Shown here one piece after another: positions 14,947 through 49,606 of a stretch of DNA of 64,000 nt. The notes beneath the pieces were generated by a model. It was not told where the DNA came from and ran no database searches. It saw nothing but the letters and a program-made list of their open reading frames with translations. Numbering within the stretch: position 1 is the first letter of the stretch; every line of letters starts with the position of its first letter. A program made the translations under genes and the position numbers. Source of the stretch: Prochlorococcus sp. AG-418-F16 (lineage in GTDB: Bacteria; Cyanobacteriota; Cyanobacteriia; PCC-6307; Cyanobiaceae); the NCBI GenBank assembly GCA_003214235.1, contig QCLW01000002.1, forward strand, positions 1-64,000, written 5' to 3'.

Positions 14947-15405
14947 TTATATTTTTTCTAGTAGTATTTTTGCTATATCATTTCGGATAGGTAGTATAGA
15001 TAACCTATTTCCTTTTTTTACAACCAATAACTCATCCTCACTAAATAAAATCTTTAATTCATTTAAACTTAGAATCTTATTTGACTTAGATATATATTTT
15101 ACTTTTACACAATCCCATCTAGGATTATTAGTTTTCGATTTTGGATCAAAATACTTTGAATCTTTATCAAATTGTGTAGGATCAACAATATTTAGATCTA
15201 CAATCTCCATGAGTCCAACAATACCTGGGGGTTTGCAGTTTGAATGATAGAAAAAAACTTTATCCCCCTTATTCATCTTTCTCATGAAATTTCGAGCTTG
15301 ATAATTTCTTATACCATCCCATAATGTAACTCCATCATTTTTTAAACAATCTATGCTGTAAGCATAAGGTTCACTTTTCATTAGCCAAAACTTTTCTTCA
15401 GTCAT
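14947..15405 (-). CDS. EVE-domain protein
   Basis: 152 residues from the ATG at 15405. The EVE fold signature is clear: FWLMKSEPYAYSID, LWDGIRNYQARNF, and GDKVFFYHSNCKPPGIVG. EVE proteins relate to YTH/PUA readers and bind modified bases or nucleotides. A longer frame opens at 15453, but those 16 codons fall in the leader that varies most between the dispersed copies of this region, so MTEEKFWLMKSE is the better start. This gene is the apparent parent of the repeats at 17-28 kb. Confidence 0.82.
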   Translation of the reverse strand: MTEEKFWLMKSEPYAYSIDCLKNDGVTLWDGIRNYQARNFMRKMNKGDKVFFYHSNCKPPGIVGLMEIVDLNIVDPTQFDKDSKYFDPKSKTNNPRWDCVKVKYISKSNKILSLNELKILFSEDELLVVKKGNRLSILPIRNDIAKILLEKI

Positions 15406-16907: not shown

Positions 16908-17069
16908 ATGAACCTAAAAATCAATATAAATTTTTTAGAAAAATATTTAGCTTTTTTAGTAAATGATTTTGAATATAAAAGGATTAATGAAAAATTAAAA
17001 GAATATGATTTAATGGCAGACGTTGACGATCAAAGATTTCATCATTTTAGATCGACTTTCAATCGCTAG
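16908..17069 (+). CDS. Possible small protein (53 aa) ending inside repeat B
   Basis: MNLKININFLEKYLAFLVND onward, charged and helical. The last ~8 codons and the stop lie in the dispersed repeat, so the end may be accidental. No known family. A competing minus-strand start (MMKSLIV) lies in the same repeat. Confidence 0.35.
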   Translation: MNLKININFLEKYLAFLVNDFEYKRINEKLKEYDLMADVDDQRFHHFRSTFNR

Positions 17070-17286
17070 AAGTTTGAATAAAGTTTGAATAAAAAATTAC
17101 GATTCTTTGAGATCCCAGTAATAGCTAGACGGGCTCACTTTTCATTAGCCAAAAATTTTCTTCAGTCATATCAAGGGATTTGGAGGAATTTATCTGCTAG
17201 AATTTTGCTAGAATCAGAATTTTTTTATATGTTTATTATCCATTAAAGTTCCTATTTAGGAAAGTGATGGGTGGTATGGGGTCATT
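17046..17286 (-). repeat. Repeat copy B (EVE-type expression module)
   Basis: Minus-strand order: conserved promoter block (17286 inward) with perfect palindrome TTCCTAAATAGGAA; a leader replaced by an 11-bp tandem pair TGCTAGAATTT/TGCTAGAATCA (17195-17216, plus-strand reading); mini-ORF MTEENFWLMKSEPV with TAG (17125-17169); GATCTCAAAGAATC block; 11-bp tandem pair AGTTTGAATAA x2 (17071-17092); and TTGAAAGTCGATCTAAAAT. Confidence 0.8.
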
Positions 17287-17512: not shown

Positions 17513-17842
17513 ATTTATTCCTTGTTTAAAGATTATGGTTGATTTCTACAGCTTCCGCGGCAGTCTCATGACAACCATGTAGATACTCTAGGAAGTCTTA
17601 ATTATTCACTGAGTATTTATACGTACCTACTCCCGAACCTAATCGTTCCTTAACCCGTACAAAGTTTATATCACAAATCTAATAACTCTAATTAATAATT
17701 TTTTCTACTTTAAAATCATCTTTCTTTGCACCTTAGTTAATACTCGTAATCTCTTTTGATTGTTTTCTTTGGGCTTATTCTGCTAGTCACTTGCTAGCCA
17801 CTGAAATTATCAACTCTTTAAAACCCCTGCAATAACTCAAGG
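17513..17842. other. Gene-free stretch between acidic microprotein and repeat C
   Basis: No convincing reading frame on either strand. A GAGTA...TACTC inverted repeat near 17620 overlaps a TATAAATACT sequence on the minus strand, which could be the promoter of the 17363-17512 gene. Confidence 0.3.
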
Positions 17843-18000
17843 CTTACTTTTCATTAGCCAAAACTTTTCTTCAGTCATACCAAGAGAACTCAGCGATCTT
17901 TAAGGCTTGGAGGACGTGTTATCCAAGCTTTTTTGGGTATAAATTCATTATCCATCAAAGTCTCTAATTAGGGAAGTTATGGTATGGGTGGTATGGGTTA
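17843..18000 (-). repeat. Repeat copy C (EVE-type promoter and mini-ORF)
   Basis: Keeps the native-type leader with hairpin GCTTGGA...TCCAAGC and a mini-ORF MTEEKFWLMKSKP ending TGA (17837-17878). The palindrome is altered to CTAATTAG and the GGTATGGGT block is partly duplicated. The 11-bp tandem and TTGACAG blocks are missing. Lies upstream of the 17363-17512 gene. Confidence 0.75.
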
Positions 18001-18150
18001 TTTAATGACTCCGCTTTAAGGGTTCTCTGAAGGTCTACAGCTGTCTTCTTTTCTGAGGCTTCCTTCTTTTCCCTTCCTTATCTCAAGTAGTTAATCTCAT
18101 TCATACTAGTCGTTTTTAAGGAGGTTACATTTTTTTTAACTTCTTGTTTT

Positions 18151-20469: not shown

Positions 20470-20603
20470 AAATTTTGTCCGTAATTAATGAAACTATATA
20501 ACAGACTTAAATAATTAACTGACTTATATAAATCATATGAAAGTATAAATTGAGAGTGGCAATTGTAAATACATCTTGCTCCTTATTTTTTTTAAATTTC
20601 TTT

Positions 20604-20836
20604 TAAAAGTGTGAATAAAGTGTGAATAGAAAATTGCGAATCCTTGAGATCCGTGTAATAGCTAGTCGCGCTCACTTTTCATTAGCCAGTAATTTATCTC
20701 AGTCATATCAAGGGATTAGGAGAATATTGCAAATCGTGAATGAATCGTGAATGTAATATAAGATTTGCCTTTATAAAATCATTATCCATTAAAGCTCCTA
20801 TTTAGGAAAGTGATGGGTGGTATGGGGTTATCTCCG
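20604..20836 (-). repeat. Repeat copy D (EVE-type expression module)
   Basis: Conserved outer block with TCCTAAATAGGA; leader replaced by a perfect 11-bp tandem AATCGTGAATG x2 (20732-20753, plus-strand reading); mini-ORF MTEINYWLMKSERD with TAG (20662-20706); GGATCTCAAGGATTC; tandem AGTGTGAATAA/AGTGTGAATAG (20609-20630). The TTGACAG block is lost. It reads toward the gene at 20344-20469. Confidence 0.8.
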
Positions 20837-20915
20837 TAAGTGTTCACCTATGTAAACCCCAAGAGACATTTTTTATTTTTTTTCGGAATTTTTTAGAGGT
20901 TTTAAATTATCACAA

Positions 20916-21197
20916 TTAATAAGAGTTTTGTACCCAATCAGAAACTTCTATTGTTGAAATCTTAACTCCATGAGTAGCTATCCAAGAGCCATTCTTTTCA
21001 AAGAACTTTTGCATATTCCCTTCGGGACCTTGATGTATGACAATAACTTTTTGAGGATCTTTCTTGCTTTGACCTCTATAAAGCGGCTTAATATCAAATT
21101 GAGAAAGTCTTTTACATGAATCCTCGCTATCAAAAAATACTAACCATTCATTAAACTAGACCTCAATTTTATATGTGAGAACTGTAGTTATATCCAT
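20916..21197 (-). pseudogene. DUF3764 paralogue with one in-frame stop
   Basis: 94 codons, the same length as the intact gene at 37696-37980, with matching segments (PLYRGQSKKDPQKVIVIHQ). Codon 14 is TAG (21156-21158), otherwise the frame is intact. A recent nonsense mutation is likeliest; readthrough or a sequencing error would also fit. Confidence 0.7.
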
Positions 21198-21232
21198 TAG
21201 ATATAATTAATTAAGTTAATACATTTTTTTAT

Positions 21233-21263
21233 ATTACTAGTAATTTTATAAAAAACTAGTAAT
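21233..21263. promoter_or_regulatory. Palindromic operator candidate upstream of the RHH gene
   Basis: ATTACTAGTAAT (21233-21244) is a perfect 12-bp palindrome, followed by a second ACTAGTAAT (21255-21263) 19 bp on. The same palindrome precedes the porin at 22058-22069. RHH repressors bind such tandem short palindromes and often control their own genes, so autoregulation is a fair inference. Confidence 0.5.
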
Positions 21264-21354
21264 AATTTCTCCTTTATAATATATATTTAGTTAATTAGTT
21301 AAGCTCTTAATTTCTAAAAATAACACTTAGAATTGGTTTAATTACATATTAAGT

Positions 21355-21879
21355 TTGTCTAAGAGGACTCAATTAAATATAAATATTGACGAATACTTGC
21401 TAAAGGAATTAAAGCAACTTGCGTTGTCAAAGAATCTGGCTTTAAGCGTTTTTATAAGAAATTCTTTAAGGAATATAGTTTCTGGTAAAAGAGATGAAAC
21501 TTTATCTTTAAAAAATCAACCTTTTACAGAAAAGCAGGCATTAAATTGTACTAGTTTTATGAAGGCAATATTTCAAAAGATGCGTGTAAAAAAAATATTT
21601 AAAAATGATATAGATGCTTTTAACAGCCTTTTATCTCATATAGAACTTTCTAAGCAATGGAATGATATTTATACAATGCGCTTGAAAGAAGTTTTGCTTG
21701 ATGTCTCGTCTACTCCTTTTACAGCAGAAGAATTAAATGACATGACTAAGGATAGGGAATGTGAATGCCCAATATATTTTGGATTAAAAGAATGGACTGG
21801 TTGTGTTGAGTATCCTACTCAAGATTTGATTTGTAACTTAGGTAGCTCGCTAATTTTACTTATAGAAAATCAATTTTAA
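21355..21879 (+). CDS. Ribbon-helix-helix DNA-binding protein
   Basis: 174 residues from TTG. Residues 1-45 show an RHH pattern: beta strand TQLNINID, helix EYLLKELKQLALSKN, turn, helix LSVFIRNSLRNIVSG. The remaining ~130 residues are unfamiliar, with a Cys-containing part (DRECECPIYFG). Longer than simple CopG/Arc proteins. Likely regulates itself and the adjacent porin through the ATTACTAGTAAT sites (inference). Confidence 0.7.
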   Translation: MSKRTQLNINIDEYLLKELKQLALSKNLALSVFIRNSLRNIVSGKRDETLSLKNQPFTEKQALNCTSFMKAIFQKMRVKKIFKNDIDAFNSLLSHIELSKQWNDIYTMRLKEVLLDVSSTPFTAEELNDMTKDRECECPIYFGLKEWTGCVEYPTQDLICNLGSSLILLIENQF

Positions 21880-22050
21880 AGGTTTTTTACTAGAAGTATT
21901 AATAGATGATATATCCCAAAATAAATGTATTTTTCTTAATTAGTTAGACAATAAATAGACAATATTTATACCAAGCTATATAAATTAAGTAATACTAGAT
22001 ATCAAATAAAATATAATCCAATATGTAAATCGTCTATTTAGGGCATTAAC

Positions 22051-22069
22051 CTAGTAAATTACTAGTAAT
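22051..22069. promoter_or_regulatory. Operator candidate upstream of the porin gene
   Basis: CTAGTAA (22051-22057) joined to palindrome ATTACTAGTAAT (22058-22069), repeat spacing 11 bp, ending 33 bases before the preferred start of the porin. It matches the pair at 21233-21263 and links the two genes in regulation. Confidence 0.5.
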
Positions 22070-22102
22070 ATAAGATTGAAAAAATATAGTGTGAGGCTAT
22101 TT

Positions 22103-22702
22103 GTGAAATCTATTAAAAAGTTATTTGCTGCAACCGTTGCAGGGTTATCTTTAGTTTGCTCTCCTTTATTTGCAGATGATTACTCTTCAAAAGGATCATA
22201 TATAACTGGAAGTATTGGAGGTAGTGCAATAGGAGATATTGATGTATCTGGAGTGAATTCAGATATTGAGTTTGAAACAGGTTTAGGACTTGATTTGGGG
22301 TATGGATATGACTTTGGTAAAACTCGTATCGAAGGGACTTGGGTTAGAGGGCAATCTGATAAGACTTCTTGGCTTGGATACACTGTTCAATCTGATACGA
22401 CAATTGATTCTATTATGGGTTCAATTTATTACGATTTTCGCGAAGACAAAAAATGGAGTCCGTTTATTGGAGCATCTTTAGGAACAACTAATGTTGACTT
22501 TGATGGGGCTTCTGATTCAGGGTTTTCTTATGGGTTTGGTTATGGTGTAAGTTATAGAACATCTGATACCGTAGAAGTTTTCGTTAAAGGTCAAACAACT
22601 GTCATCCCAGAACTTACATTCGCTACAGTTAATAACTCAACAGTTACCATAGAAAACGGAAACTATACAAATGGAACAATCGGATTAAGAGTGAGATTCT
22701 AA
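22103..22702 (+). CDS. Outer-membrane beta-barrel protein
   Basis: 199 residues from the GTG at 22103, chosen because a GAGG ribosome site precedes it and it gives a normal signal peptide (MKSIKKLFAATVAGLSLVCS, cut after LFADD). A TTG at 22076 would add nine residues. The mature part alternates Gly and aromatic residues in strands (GSYITGSIGGSAIGDIDVSG, YYDFREDKKWSPFIGASLG) and ends in phenylalanine (GLRVRF), as in OmpA-like 8-strand barrels. Confidence 0.75.
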   Translation: MKSIKKLFAATVAGLSLVCSPLFADDYSSKGSYITGSIGGSAIGDIDVSGVNSDIEFETGLGLDLGYGYDFGKTRIEGTWVRGQSDKTSWLGYTVQSDTTIDSIMGSIYYDFREDKKWSPFIGASLGTTNVDFDGASDSGFSYGFGYGVSYRTSDTVEVFVKGQTTVIPELTFATVNNSTVTIENGNYTNGTIGLRVRF

Positions 22703-24436: not shown

Positions 24437-24665
24437 CGCTAAAAGTGTGAATAAAGTGTGAATAGAAAATTGCGAATCCTTGAGATCCAAGTAATAGCTA
24501 GACGGCTGTACTTTTCATTAGCTAGTAGTTAGGTTCATTCATATCAAGGGATCTTAGCGAATTTTAAAGCTTGGAACAGATGTTGTTCAAACTTTTTTGG
24601 GTATAAATTTATTATCCATGAAAGTTCCTATTTAGGAAAGTGATGGGTGGTATGGGGTTATCTCC
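24421..24665 (-). repeat. Repeat copy G (most complete)
   Basis: All blocks are present: ACCCCATACCACCCATCAC, palindrome TTCCTAAATAGGAA, native-type leader hairpin with changed arms (TTGGAAC/GTTCAA), mini-ORF shortened by a stop (MNEPNY), GGATCTCAAGGATTC, tandem AGTGTGAATAA/AGTGTGAATAG (24444-24465) and TTGACAGTAGATTT. It runs straight into the leader of the dioxygenase gene. Confidence 0.82.
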
Positions 24666-24708
24666 TTTCCGCGTGAATATGTAAACCCCAAGATAGATTT
24701 TTTAATTT

Positions 24709-24933: not shown

Positions 24934-25119
24934 GCAATAAGTATTTTTAATTTAATGGCTTCTAAATAAATAACAATAAGTCTGTTAGGTAAACAAAAAC
25001 GAACTAGTTTTTCCTTTTCTTGATTTGACTGATAATCAAGATTAAAGATGTAAATAAATTAGCTTTAAAATATTTCCAAAGATATTTAATACTAAACTTC
25101 ATTGATTAATGAATTAATT

Positions 25120-25332
25120 ATGAAACACTTTATTTCTTTTATTCCTTTTCTTTGTATGTCAATTCTTCCATTAAGTTGTTCTAATAAACCTATTGAAAAA
25201 GAAATGAAAATGCCAATGCTATTTGATACAAAGGAACAGGCTGAAAAAGAAGCTTATAAGTTTGGGTGTGAGGGAGCCCATCAAATGGGAGATAAATGGA
25301 TGCCGTGCAGTATGCATAAACATAACCATTAG
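25120..25332 (+). CDS. DUF3721 protein, probable lipoprotein
   Basis: 70 residues from the ATG at 25120 (a TTG six codons earlier is less likely). A signal sequence ends in a lipobox-like PLSC, followed by the DUF3721 core MLFDTKEQAEKEAYKFGCEG and AHQMGDKWMPC. Short His-rich tail (MHKHNH). Cyanobacterial family of unknown role; conserved Cys and His suggest metal or redox contact. Confidence 0.75.
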   Translation: MKHFISFIPFLCMSILPLSCSNKPIEKEMKMPMLFDTKEQAEKEAYKFGCEGAHQMGDKWMPCSMHKHNH

Positions 25333-27667: not shown

Positions 27668-27812
27668 ATTTTAGATCGACTGTCAATCGTTAAAAGTTTG
27701 ATTAAAGTTTGAGTAAAAAATTACGATTGATTGAGATCCCATTAATAGCTAGACGCGCTCAATTTTCATTAGCCAAAACTTTTCTTCATTCATATCAAGG
27801 GGGTTGGATGCG
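27668..27812 (-). repeat. Repeat copy H (inner half with mini-ORF)
   Basis: TTGACAGTCGATCTAAAAT (27671-27689 on the minus strand), tandem AGTTTGATTAA/AGTTTGAGTAA (27695-27716), GGGATCTCAATCAATC block, mini-ORF MNEEKFWLMKIERV with TAG (27749-27793), CCCCTTGATATG. The promoter half is missing. It reads into the 27249-27644 gene. Confidence 0.78.
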
Positions 27813-41688: not shown

Positions 41689-42711
41689 CAGTTTAAGAAA
41701 TTAAGTATCCTCTTTAAGTGTCAGATTAACAACCTCATTTTTATTTGCAATAGATATAAATAATCAATTGAACTTAAATAAGTTATTCAATATTTAGTAA
41801 GCTATTAATTTAAATATTAAAACCTGCAAATAAATAACTTCTTCTAATCAAGAAAAACTTTTGATTGAATTAGATGGAACTTCTACTGATATCGATGATA
41901 CGCCGTAATGTGATTCGGCTGATCTTATTAGTAACCAGTAAAAAAAATTAACTAAAATTTTCTCCACGAGGATTTAGCAACTAATCCAAATAACCTCATA
42001 AATTTTGTAATAGCAATATACAAAATAAATTTATCAAGCAATCAAGATATTTATCTCAAAAAAGCATAGATTAATATTAATTTAGAAAAAATTTACACCC
42101 TCAGTCTTTAGTAGGTAGCGGACTAAATCCTTTTGATAGTATTGGACTTTAGCCCGATTTATTTTTTAGCAAAAGAAAAATGTCACTGCAAGGGAGCTAG
42201 ATCACAAATACAATTCTTTATTTTTAAGAAGCCTTTAAGAGTTAATTAGAGCAAGATTATCTAATTATATGAAGTTGTTATTTATTCTATGAGGATGTTA
42301 ACAGACTTTTGTAATATCTATGATTCATTTTTTTTAGGGTAATCTTAGTTATCTGTGCTTTATCCTTTTTAGGGAGTTTATGAGTAAGAATTCAACTATA
42401 AATTGAAGCATGGCTTGCCTTAAGGGTTGACAGCTAAGTATAAATACTTTATAAATAGAGTGTAACAAATTCTACAAAATCGTCCGATCTACCATCTGAT
42501 AGACCGCAGTATGACTCAAGCCATAGGACGGGGACTTGAGCAAGTTCAGGAGCTGCATCATGGTAAACATGTATTTCAATGGAAAGTCTTTCGTATATTG
42601 TAGAAAACAAGAAGAAAAGGCAATAAATCTTATTTATAGAGGATCTAGATACTTAAAATAAGATGTCTAAATTTTTTTAGATATCTAATGAAAATTTATT
42701 TAAGAGGTGCT
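41689..42711. other. 1-kb stretch of gene debris
   Basis: No intact gene. A minus-strand frame at 42449-42610 reads protein-like (APELAQVPVLWLES, CGLSDGRSDDFVEF) with higher GC than its surroundings but has no start. A second fragment near 41870-41945 (minus, AESHYGVSS) may be related. Looks like decayed insertions. Confidence 0.4.
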
Positions 42712-49198: not shown

Positions 49199-49606
49199 AC
49201 ATTTTGTTTGATCTATTTTCTATTTAGCAAATAAATAAATTTTTGACATTAGTTTCACCTCTTTAGGATTTTACTCAATAGGTAAAAGATTATTTAGTTA
49301 TTTAGTTTATTTGCTTTCTTTTAAAATTGAAAGAGCTTGCAAGTATCCCACAGGCAAGCTCATGACGACCTAGTTAAATTCAAACGTTCTGAAGTTAACC
49401 AGCTAAGCACTTCCTAAATGCTAATTATATTTTAATAAGTAAAATTACTTACTGTGAGTATAAATGCTTATTTTAGGTAATTCATCCAAAAAAAAATGGT
49501 TAAGAGAAGCAATTTAATTAAATTCTGTTCAAGCAGTCAATTTATAGACAAAAATGTTACATATTGATTAATAAGTGCTTCCTAATTAATATTTTTGACC
49601 TTTTGG
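49199..49606. other. Gap with an orphan AGGGATA-type terminator
   Basis: No gene. Apart from the hairpin at 49333-49365, no coding signal; a GAGTATAAATGC segment near 49457 resembles one at 32178 and could be a -10 element. Confidence 0.3.
49333..49365 (-). terminator. Orphan terminator of the hli-cluster type
   Basis: Minus strand GAGCTTGC-CTGTGGGATACTT-GCAAGCTC then TTTC; preceded by TCGTCATGAGC as in cluster 2. No gene lies above it on that strand, so it is probably what is left of a deleted cluster. Confidence 0.65.

Follow-up and report, generated by a model that had tools for sequence, protein, structure and literature searches.

The 174-amino-acid RHH protein encoded within the window, the whole 64,000-nucleotide stretch of Prochlorococcus DNA that was analysed, is probably (at a probability of about 0.7) a dedicated local repressor of the Arc/CopG kind, the dimers of which would occupy paired CTAG sites and block both flanking promoters until a signal acting on the C-terminal domain releases them. 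One promoter belongs to a divergent DUF3764 gene and the other to a gene for an outer-membrane channel, and the regulator most likely controls both, as judged from the DNA and its relatives. The module comprises the following features.

20578..20880, plus strand: copy of a dispersed island repeat (~300 nt), left border of the module
20916..21197, minus strand: DUF3764 gene in divergent orientation to the RHH gene; codon 14 is an in-frame TAG
21231..21244, minus strand: predicted main operator of the DUF3764 promoter, ATTACTAGTAAT at 21233–21244 running into a −10-like TAATAT (21231–21236, minus strand)
21252..21263, no strand assigned: auxiliary site AAAACTAGTAAT; read towards DUF3764, its CTAG comes 19 bp before the main site
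21337..21342, plus strand: putative −10 element of the RHH gene, reading TTTAAT here and TATAAT in the closest orthologue
21355..21879, plus strand: RHH regulator, 174 aa, TTG start; RHH domain ~1–45, helical C-terminal domain ~58–174
22051..22054, no strand assigned: auxiliary CTAG in the porin promoter, 11 bp before the main site
22058..22071, plus strand: predicted main operator of the porin promoter, ATTACTAGTAAT at 22058–22069 running into a −10-like TAATAT (22066–22071)
22103..22702, plus strand: outer-membrane β-barrel protein (porin), 199 aa, GTG start (ATG in L091), signal peptide, PF13505
22740..22845, plus strand: incomplete copy of the island repeat, bounding the module on the right

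The 12-bp palindrome ATTACTAGTAAT is present in exact copies at 21233–21244 and 22058–22069, and each copy has a second CTAG core beside it: at 21256 on the left, 19 bp from the core at 21237, and at 22051 on the right, 11 bp from the core at 22062. An earlier note on this DNA had described this arrangement, and it proved exact at both places. In the assembly of the same genome (1,169,063 bases, 72% complete), the 12-mer has these two copies only, which answers the note's concern that it might be equally dense genome-wide; at this completeness, additional targets may be missed. The 10-mer TTACTAGTAA occurs four times in this genome: twice at the module, once within a coding gene and once 5′ of a TolC-family gene. 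Across 200 genomes of the genus, the 12-mer was found at about 70 places, the pattern TTACTAGTAA-N8-12-CTAGTAA at two, both adjoining an RHH gene, and the pattern CTAGTAA-N0-6-TACTAGTAA at six, four of which precede a gene adjoining an RHH gene; the other two are strays with different spacings in a single genome. Loose AT-rich matches are common (21 with at most two mismatches to ATTACTAGTAAT in the window, against 10.4 expected), so the case is carried by the exact copies and their conservation.

RHH orthologues with 68–87% identity from O11 (L091), A04 (L092/L003), E21 (L093/L004), G107 (L005/L137), G15 (L094/L135) and G109 (L006/L136) were compared. The relatives are Prochlorococcus single-cell genomes, and the close set comprises seven loci with 14 promoters, one on the DUF3764 side and one on the channel side of each. 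The motif TACTAGTWAYAT (TACTAGT[A/T]A[C/T]AT) was found in 13 of the 14, compared with a mean of 0.01 and a maximum of 1 in dinucleotide shuffles of the same promoters, and a CTAG pair 8–20 bp apart was found in 12 (shuffles: mean 0.23, maximum 3); because the seven loci are related by descent, these counts are not independent. Aligned on the palindrome, the promoters share the order auxiliary CTAG (where present), spacer and TACTAGT[A/T]A[C/T]AT. The exceptions are the DUF3764 side of L093, in which AAAT replaces AYAT; the DUF3764 side of L091, which is without a recognisable second site; and L006, in which the second site is degenerate (TAATAGTAA). In MAFFT alignments of the divergent intergenic regions, no other invariant block is as long as the motif, and the DNA around it is poorly conserved. 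Conservation of the sites upstream of orthologues, a check that the earlier note had proposed, was thus borne out, and the ATTACTAGTAAT sites are, by this comparison, a conserved operator. That they are chance palindromes in AT-rich DNA, where 12-mers are frequent once two mismatches are allowed, has a negligible probability in view of the two exact genome copies, the near-confinement of paired forms to RHH loci and counts far above those in shuffles; conservation in the orthologues rules this candidate out.

The final six bases of the motif read TAAYAT in most promoters, and their resemblance to a −10 box gives the motif a direction. This direction, to DUF3764 on one side and to the channel on the other, is kept in all seven loci, and the main site overlaps a −10-like hexamer in 14 of 14 promoters. 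By its asymmetry, the right site is directed to the porin, and the left site, which lies within the intergenic region common to the RHH gene and the divergent DUF3764 gene, is directed to DUF3764 and not to the RHH gene. The suggestion that the palindrome stands before both the RHH gene and the porin therefore holds for the porin, but on the left the conserved asymmetry points the other way. The associated proposal that the regulator controls itself and the adjacent outer-membrane protein survives in part: the sites are conserved beside orthologues and follow the RHH gene, not the porin, but the left one is assigned to DUF3764. Autoregulation is possible, with the likely −10 of the RHH gene situated ~75 bp beyond the left site. 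This −10-like element (TTTAAT/TATAAT) lies immediately before the TTG start, which is at the same place in all seven close loci, suggesting a nearly leaderless, weakly translated RHH message.

The association of the sites with the RHH gene was read from loci that contain the porin without the regulator. The window porin matches OMP_b-brl (PF13505) with E = 8e-12 and 46.1 bits, above the curated cut-off of 28.7. The G037 genome, where no RHH gene was detected, encodes an 86% identical orthologue of this porin with a different signal peptide and with no CTAG in the 170 bp upstream; other porin homologues in RHH-less settings are also without upstream CTAG. These observations indicate that the operators go with the regulator and not with the porin. 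They also bear on the possibility that the sites are bound by a different protein, either a TrpR-like repressor that reads CTAG or some global factor, and that the RHH gene is a passenger. Tandem CTAG cores are a hallmark of the E. coli trp operator, and the left site is not directed to the RHH gene. The likeness is an analogy of DNA only; TrpR is a helix-turn-helix protein and the neighbour here is an RHH protein. The sites, however, accompany the RHH gene and are missing where the porin stands without it, the types of array follow RHH subfamilies, and almost all paired sites in 200 genomes lie at RHH-bearing loci, which makes a different binding protein rather unlikely.

The assignment of the neighbouring gene to the RHH regulators, made in the earlier note from the letters alone, is supported by structure comparison. 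In an AlphaFold model, residues 1–45 align with CopG, Arc, PutA and NikR (Z ~6, Foldseek probability up to 0.99), consistent with the N-terminal β-α-α fold of ~45 residues that defines the RHH superfamily; the strand is without a DSSP assignment in the monomer model. The repeated short palindromic operator is likewise a feature of the RHH (MetJ/Arc/CopG) superfamily. In RHH proteins, alternating polar residues of the strand read DNA, and Q6 and N8 are invariant in 17 family members. The C-terminal domain of ~115 residues is modelled as helices only (pLDDT 93) and contains, across the family, invariant Trp102, Trp147, Asn64 and Asn128 and a nearly invariant Cys136. Searches of Pfam, NCBIfam and the PDB returned no family or solved-structure match for this domain; the best VIA-align Z, 4.0, was to helix-turn-helix controller proteins and is within noise.

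These features place the protein beside the Arc, CopG and MetJ repressors, with which it shares the N-terminal domain, tandem short palindromic sites and local control of neighbours (reviewed for CopG and Arc in PMC4803016). It differs from them in the helical C-terminal domain, which is without a match in the searches, in CTAG cores with subfamily-specific spacing and in putative targets that are outer-membrane channels. NikR, a metal-dependent RHH regulator (H. pylori: PMC5385501), similarly joins an RHH domain to a larger C-terminal domain. The C-terminal domain in this protein is predicted to be all-helical, in contrast to the α/β, metal-binding ACT domain that NikR carries. The modelled domain is likely a sensor, and the RHH protein belongs to a new-looking family; no relevant paper joining Prochlorococcus, RHH and porin was found in the open-access literature.

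What we infer is binding at the sites by the RHH protein, a repressing rather than an activating effect, cooperativity that depends on spacing, and a ligand; the sites themselves, their conservation and direction, the RHH linkage and the channel exchange described below were established by sequence. In the mechanism we propose, RHH dimers would bind CTAG-centred sites pairwise, occupying the high-affinity palindrome TTACTAGTAA over the −10 box and, upstream of it, an auxiliary CTAG at a distance of 11 bp (one turn) or 19–20 bp (about two turns). Binding of RHH dimers to adjacent sites is an established mode, reviewed for CopG, Arc and the omega protein (PMC4803016). That the main site shares bases with the −10 box points to a steric mode of repression, in which dimers on the DNA would obstruct RNA polymerase before DUF3764 and the channel gene, and probably before a TolC-family gene too. 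Release would follow a signal sensed by the helical C-terminal domain, in which Cys and Trp residues are conserved; the conserved Cys65, Cys138 and Cys160 could bind a metal, and given these cysteines the first candidate is a metal or redox signal. Activation or nucleoid-type binding may occur instead of repression. Some RHH proteins, AmrZ among them, both activate and repress (PMC3325190), and several porin promoters have extra CTAGs further upstream, so a protein that binds these sites chiefly as an activator or dual switch has some chance of being the right description; we consider it doubtful, given that the main site lies over a −10-like hexamer in every promoter of the close set, a position that is normally repressive. 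The operators offer short, testable handles for finding the signal behind cell-surface control in a very abundant phototroph.

The third operator-like site in this genome is the copy of TTACTAGTAA 60–70 bp upstream of the TolC/OEP-family gene (PF02321, E = 1e-32; G000:C21:1-1840, L244). It was picked by the palindrome alone, and neither its second half, TAGTAAT at a distance of 11 bp, nor the gene type was selected for. The site deviates from the strict TACTAGTWAYAT form, and its leader is like that of the exporter in G109. The gene is divergent from a PpiC-like gene and lies beside ychF-hlyD-polA; the same neighbourhood in G109 is without the tolC insertion at this place. By these features, the TolC-family gene is a possible further target of the RHH protein. 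A wider regulon is not claimed, because in RHH-bearing genomes TACTAGTWAYAT outside the module is about as frequent as its reversed control, and of 14 such places 11 fall within coding genes.

The DUF3764 gene is intact in the orthologous loci that were read, and the homologue in L091 matches PF12594 with E = 4e-34. In the window, the frame is otherwise well preserved, and the TAG reflects either real decay or a single-cell amplification error. This gene and the regulator could be imagined as a type II toxin–antitoxin operon in which DUF3764 is the partner of an RHH antitoxin, and the RHH protein does show weak matches to CopG_antitoxin and HicB-like profiles, all below the cut-off. Type II antitoxins, however, have an adjacent toxin gene, usually in one operon, whereas the neighbours here are a porin gene and a DUF3764 gene that is divergent to the RHH gene, broken in this genome while the RHH gene is kept, and absent beside more distant RHH relatives. 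A toxin–antitoxin pair is thus very improbable.

The operator that precedes the small porin in the window precedes other channels elsewhere: Som-like porins of 413–429 aa (NF033921, E about 1e-11) or Wza-like polysaccharide exporters of 577–578 aa (PF02563, E = 3e-22). The channels in L092, L093 and L151 resemble NF033921; the Som-like members score below its cut-off and match it only from profile position ~83 onward. The leader ATAGTGTGAGGCTATTT is common to the small-OMP and Som-porin versions, indicating that the change took place near the start codon, and in a tree of the RHH proteins the small-OMP pair is nested within the Som-porin group. To judge from these comparisons, the module forms one unit of the flexible island, with an operator and leader that stay while the channel gene is exchanged. 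In G077 (L151 9290–9750), an RHH remnant (the last ~25 codons), an operator and a truncated channel gene form debris behind an intact Som-like porin, which has a degenerate operator of its own.

Both borders of the module carry copies of an intergenic repeat of ~300 nt, and channel exchange by recombination between such repeats is plausible. Further copies in the window lie at 15371, 17067–17285, 17842–18001, 24440–24708 and 27690–27801, all in the same orientation. Of 41 genomes of the genus, 36 contain the repeat, which clusters in islands at one or a few places per genome and there parts small gene groups like cassette borders. It had no Rfam match at the gathering threshold, and no description of it was found in the open-access literature. 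Prochlorococcus has few regulators and keeps its surface diversity in genomic islands; a regulator family that travels with interchangeable channels, if confirmed, would mean that newly acquired channels bring their own switch.

More distant RHH relatives also adjoin outer-membrane or secretion genes. In a 53%-identical subfamily (G066, G243 and G045), the RHH gene diverges from one for a ShlB/FhaC-type transporter (PF03865), and CTAG recurs every 16 bp; in a 201-aa subfamily (G100), it lies ahead of an RTX-like gene, with a CTAG pair at 16 bp; and a relative in G146 is found among type I secretion genes. Members of a 205-aa subfamily come after a His/Met-rich Som-like porin, the promoter of which contains three CTAGs with 9-bp spacing in nearly all such loci; in 265 genomes, this triple pattern occurs at 13 places, nine of which are His-rich porin promoters. 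The island repeat borders these 205-aa modules in the same orientation. The strand reads (K)RTQLNINI or QLNI in all members of the family. We tentatively suggest, at somewhat less than even odds, that the family, with its new helical sensor domain, is specialised in outer-membrane conduits (porins, TolC, Wza, ShlB and type I secretion); that paralogues in one cell, which share a near-identical strand (KRTQLNINID) and the CTAG core, might be kept apart by spacing (9, 11/19–20 and 16 bp); and that the operator and leader might form a fixed dock for channels swapped by island-repeat recombination. Separation by spacing would be a clean case of one recognition strand serving several regulatory circuits.

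The earlier note had further proposed a switch for surface exposure, for example to phage. Phages often use outer-membrane proteins as receptors, and strains have exchanged the channel gene, so an RHH protein that senses infection or phase-varies and hides the porin can be conceived. No relative of the RHH gene was found in viral contigs or phage records, on which basis a phage origin of the gene is rejected as well; no PADLOC match supports a role in defence, and nothing was found that ties expression to phage. Channels as unlike as TolC, Wza and ShlB favour a role in transport or secretion, and we regard the phage proposal as improbable.

Several minor features accompany these loci. In L138, L154 and L096, a conserved 45-aa RHH-like ORF (MDKHNL...EDELI.KL) lies between the RHH and ShlB genes, divergent to the RHH gene, with CTAG-N4-CTAG upstream. 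In L143–L150, divergent His-rich DUF3721 proteins are encoded beside the His/Met-rich porin, with which they may form a metal-uptake unit controlled by the RHH protein, and the window encodes a DUF3721-like protein (FDTKEQAEKEAYKFGCEGAHQMGDKWMPC) at 25102–25332 (plus strand), a few kilobases from the module. Elsewhere in the window, Rfam gathering matches identify a glutamine-II riboswitch at 42478–42540 (plus strand) and the sRNA Yfr20 at 49334–49423 (minus strand).
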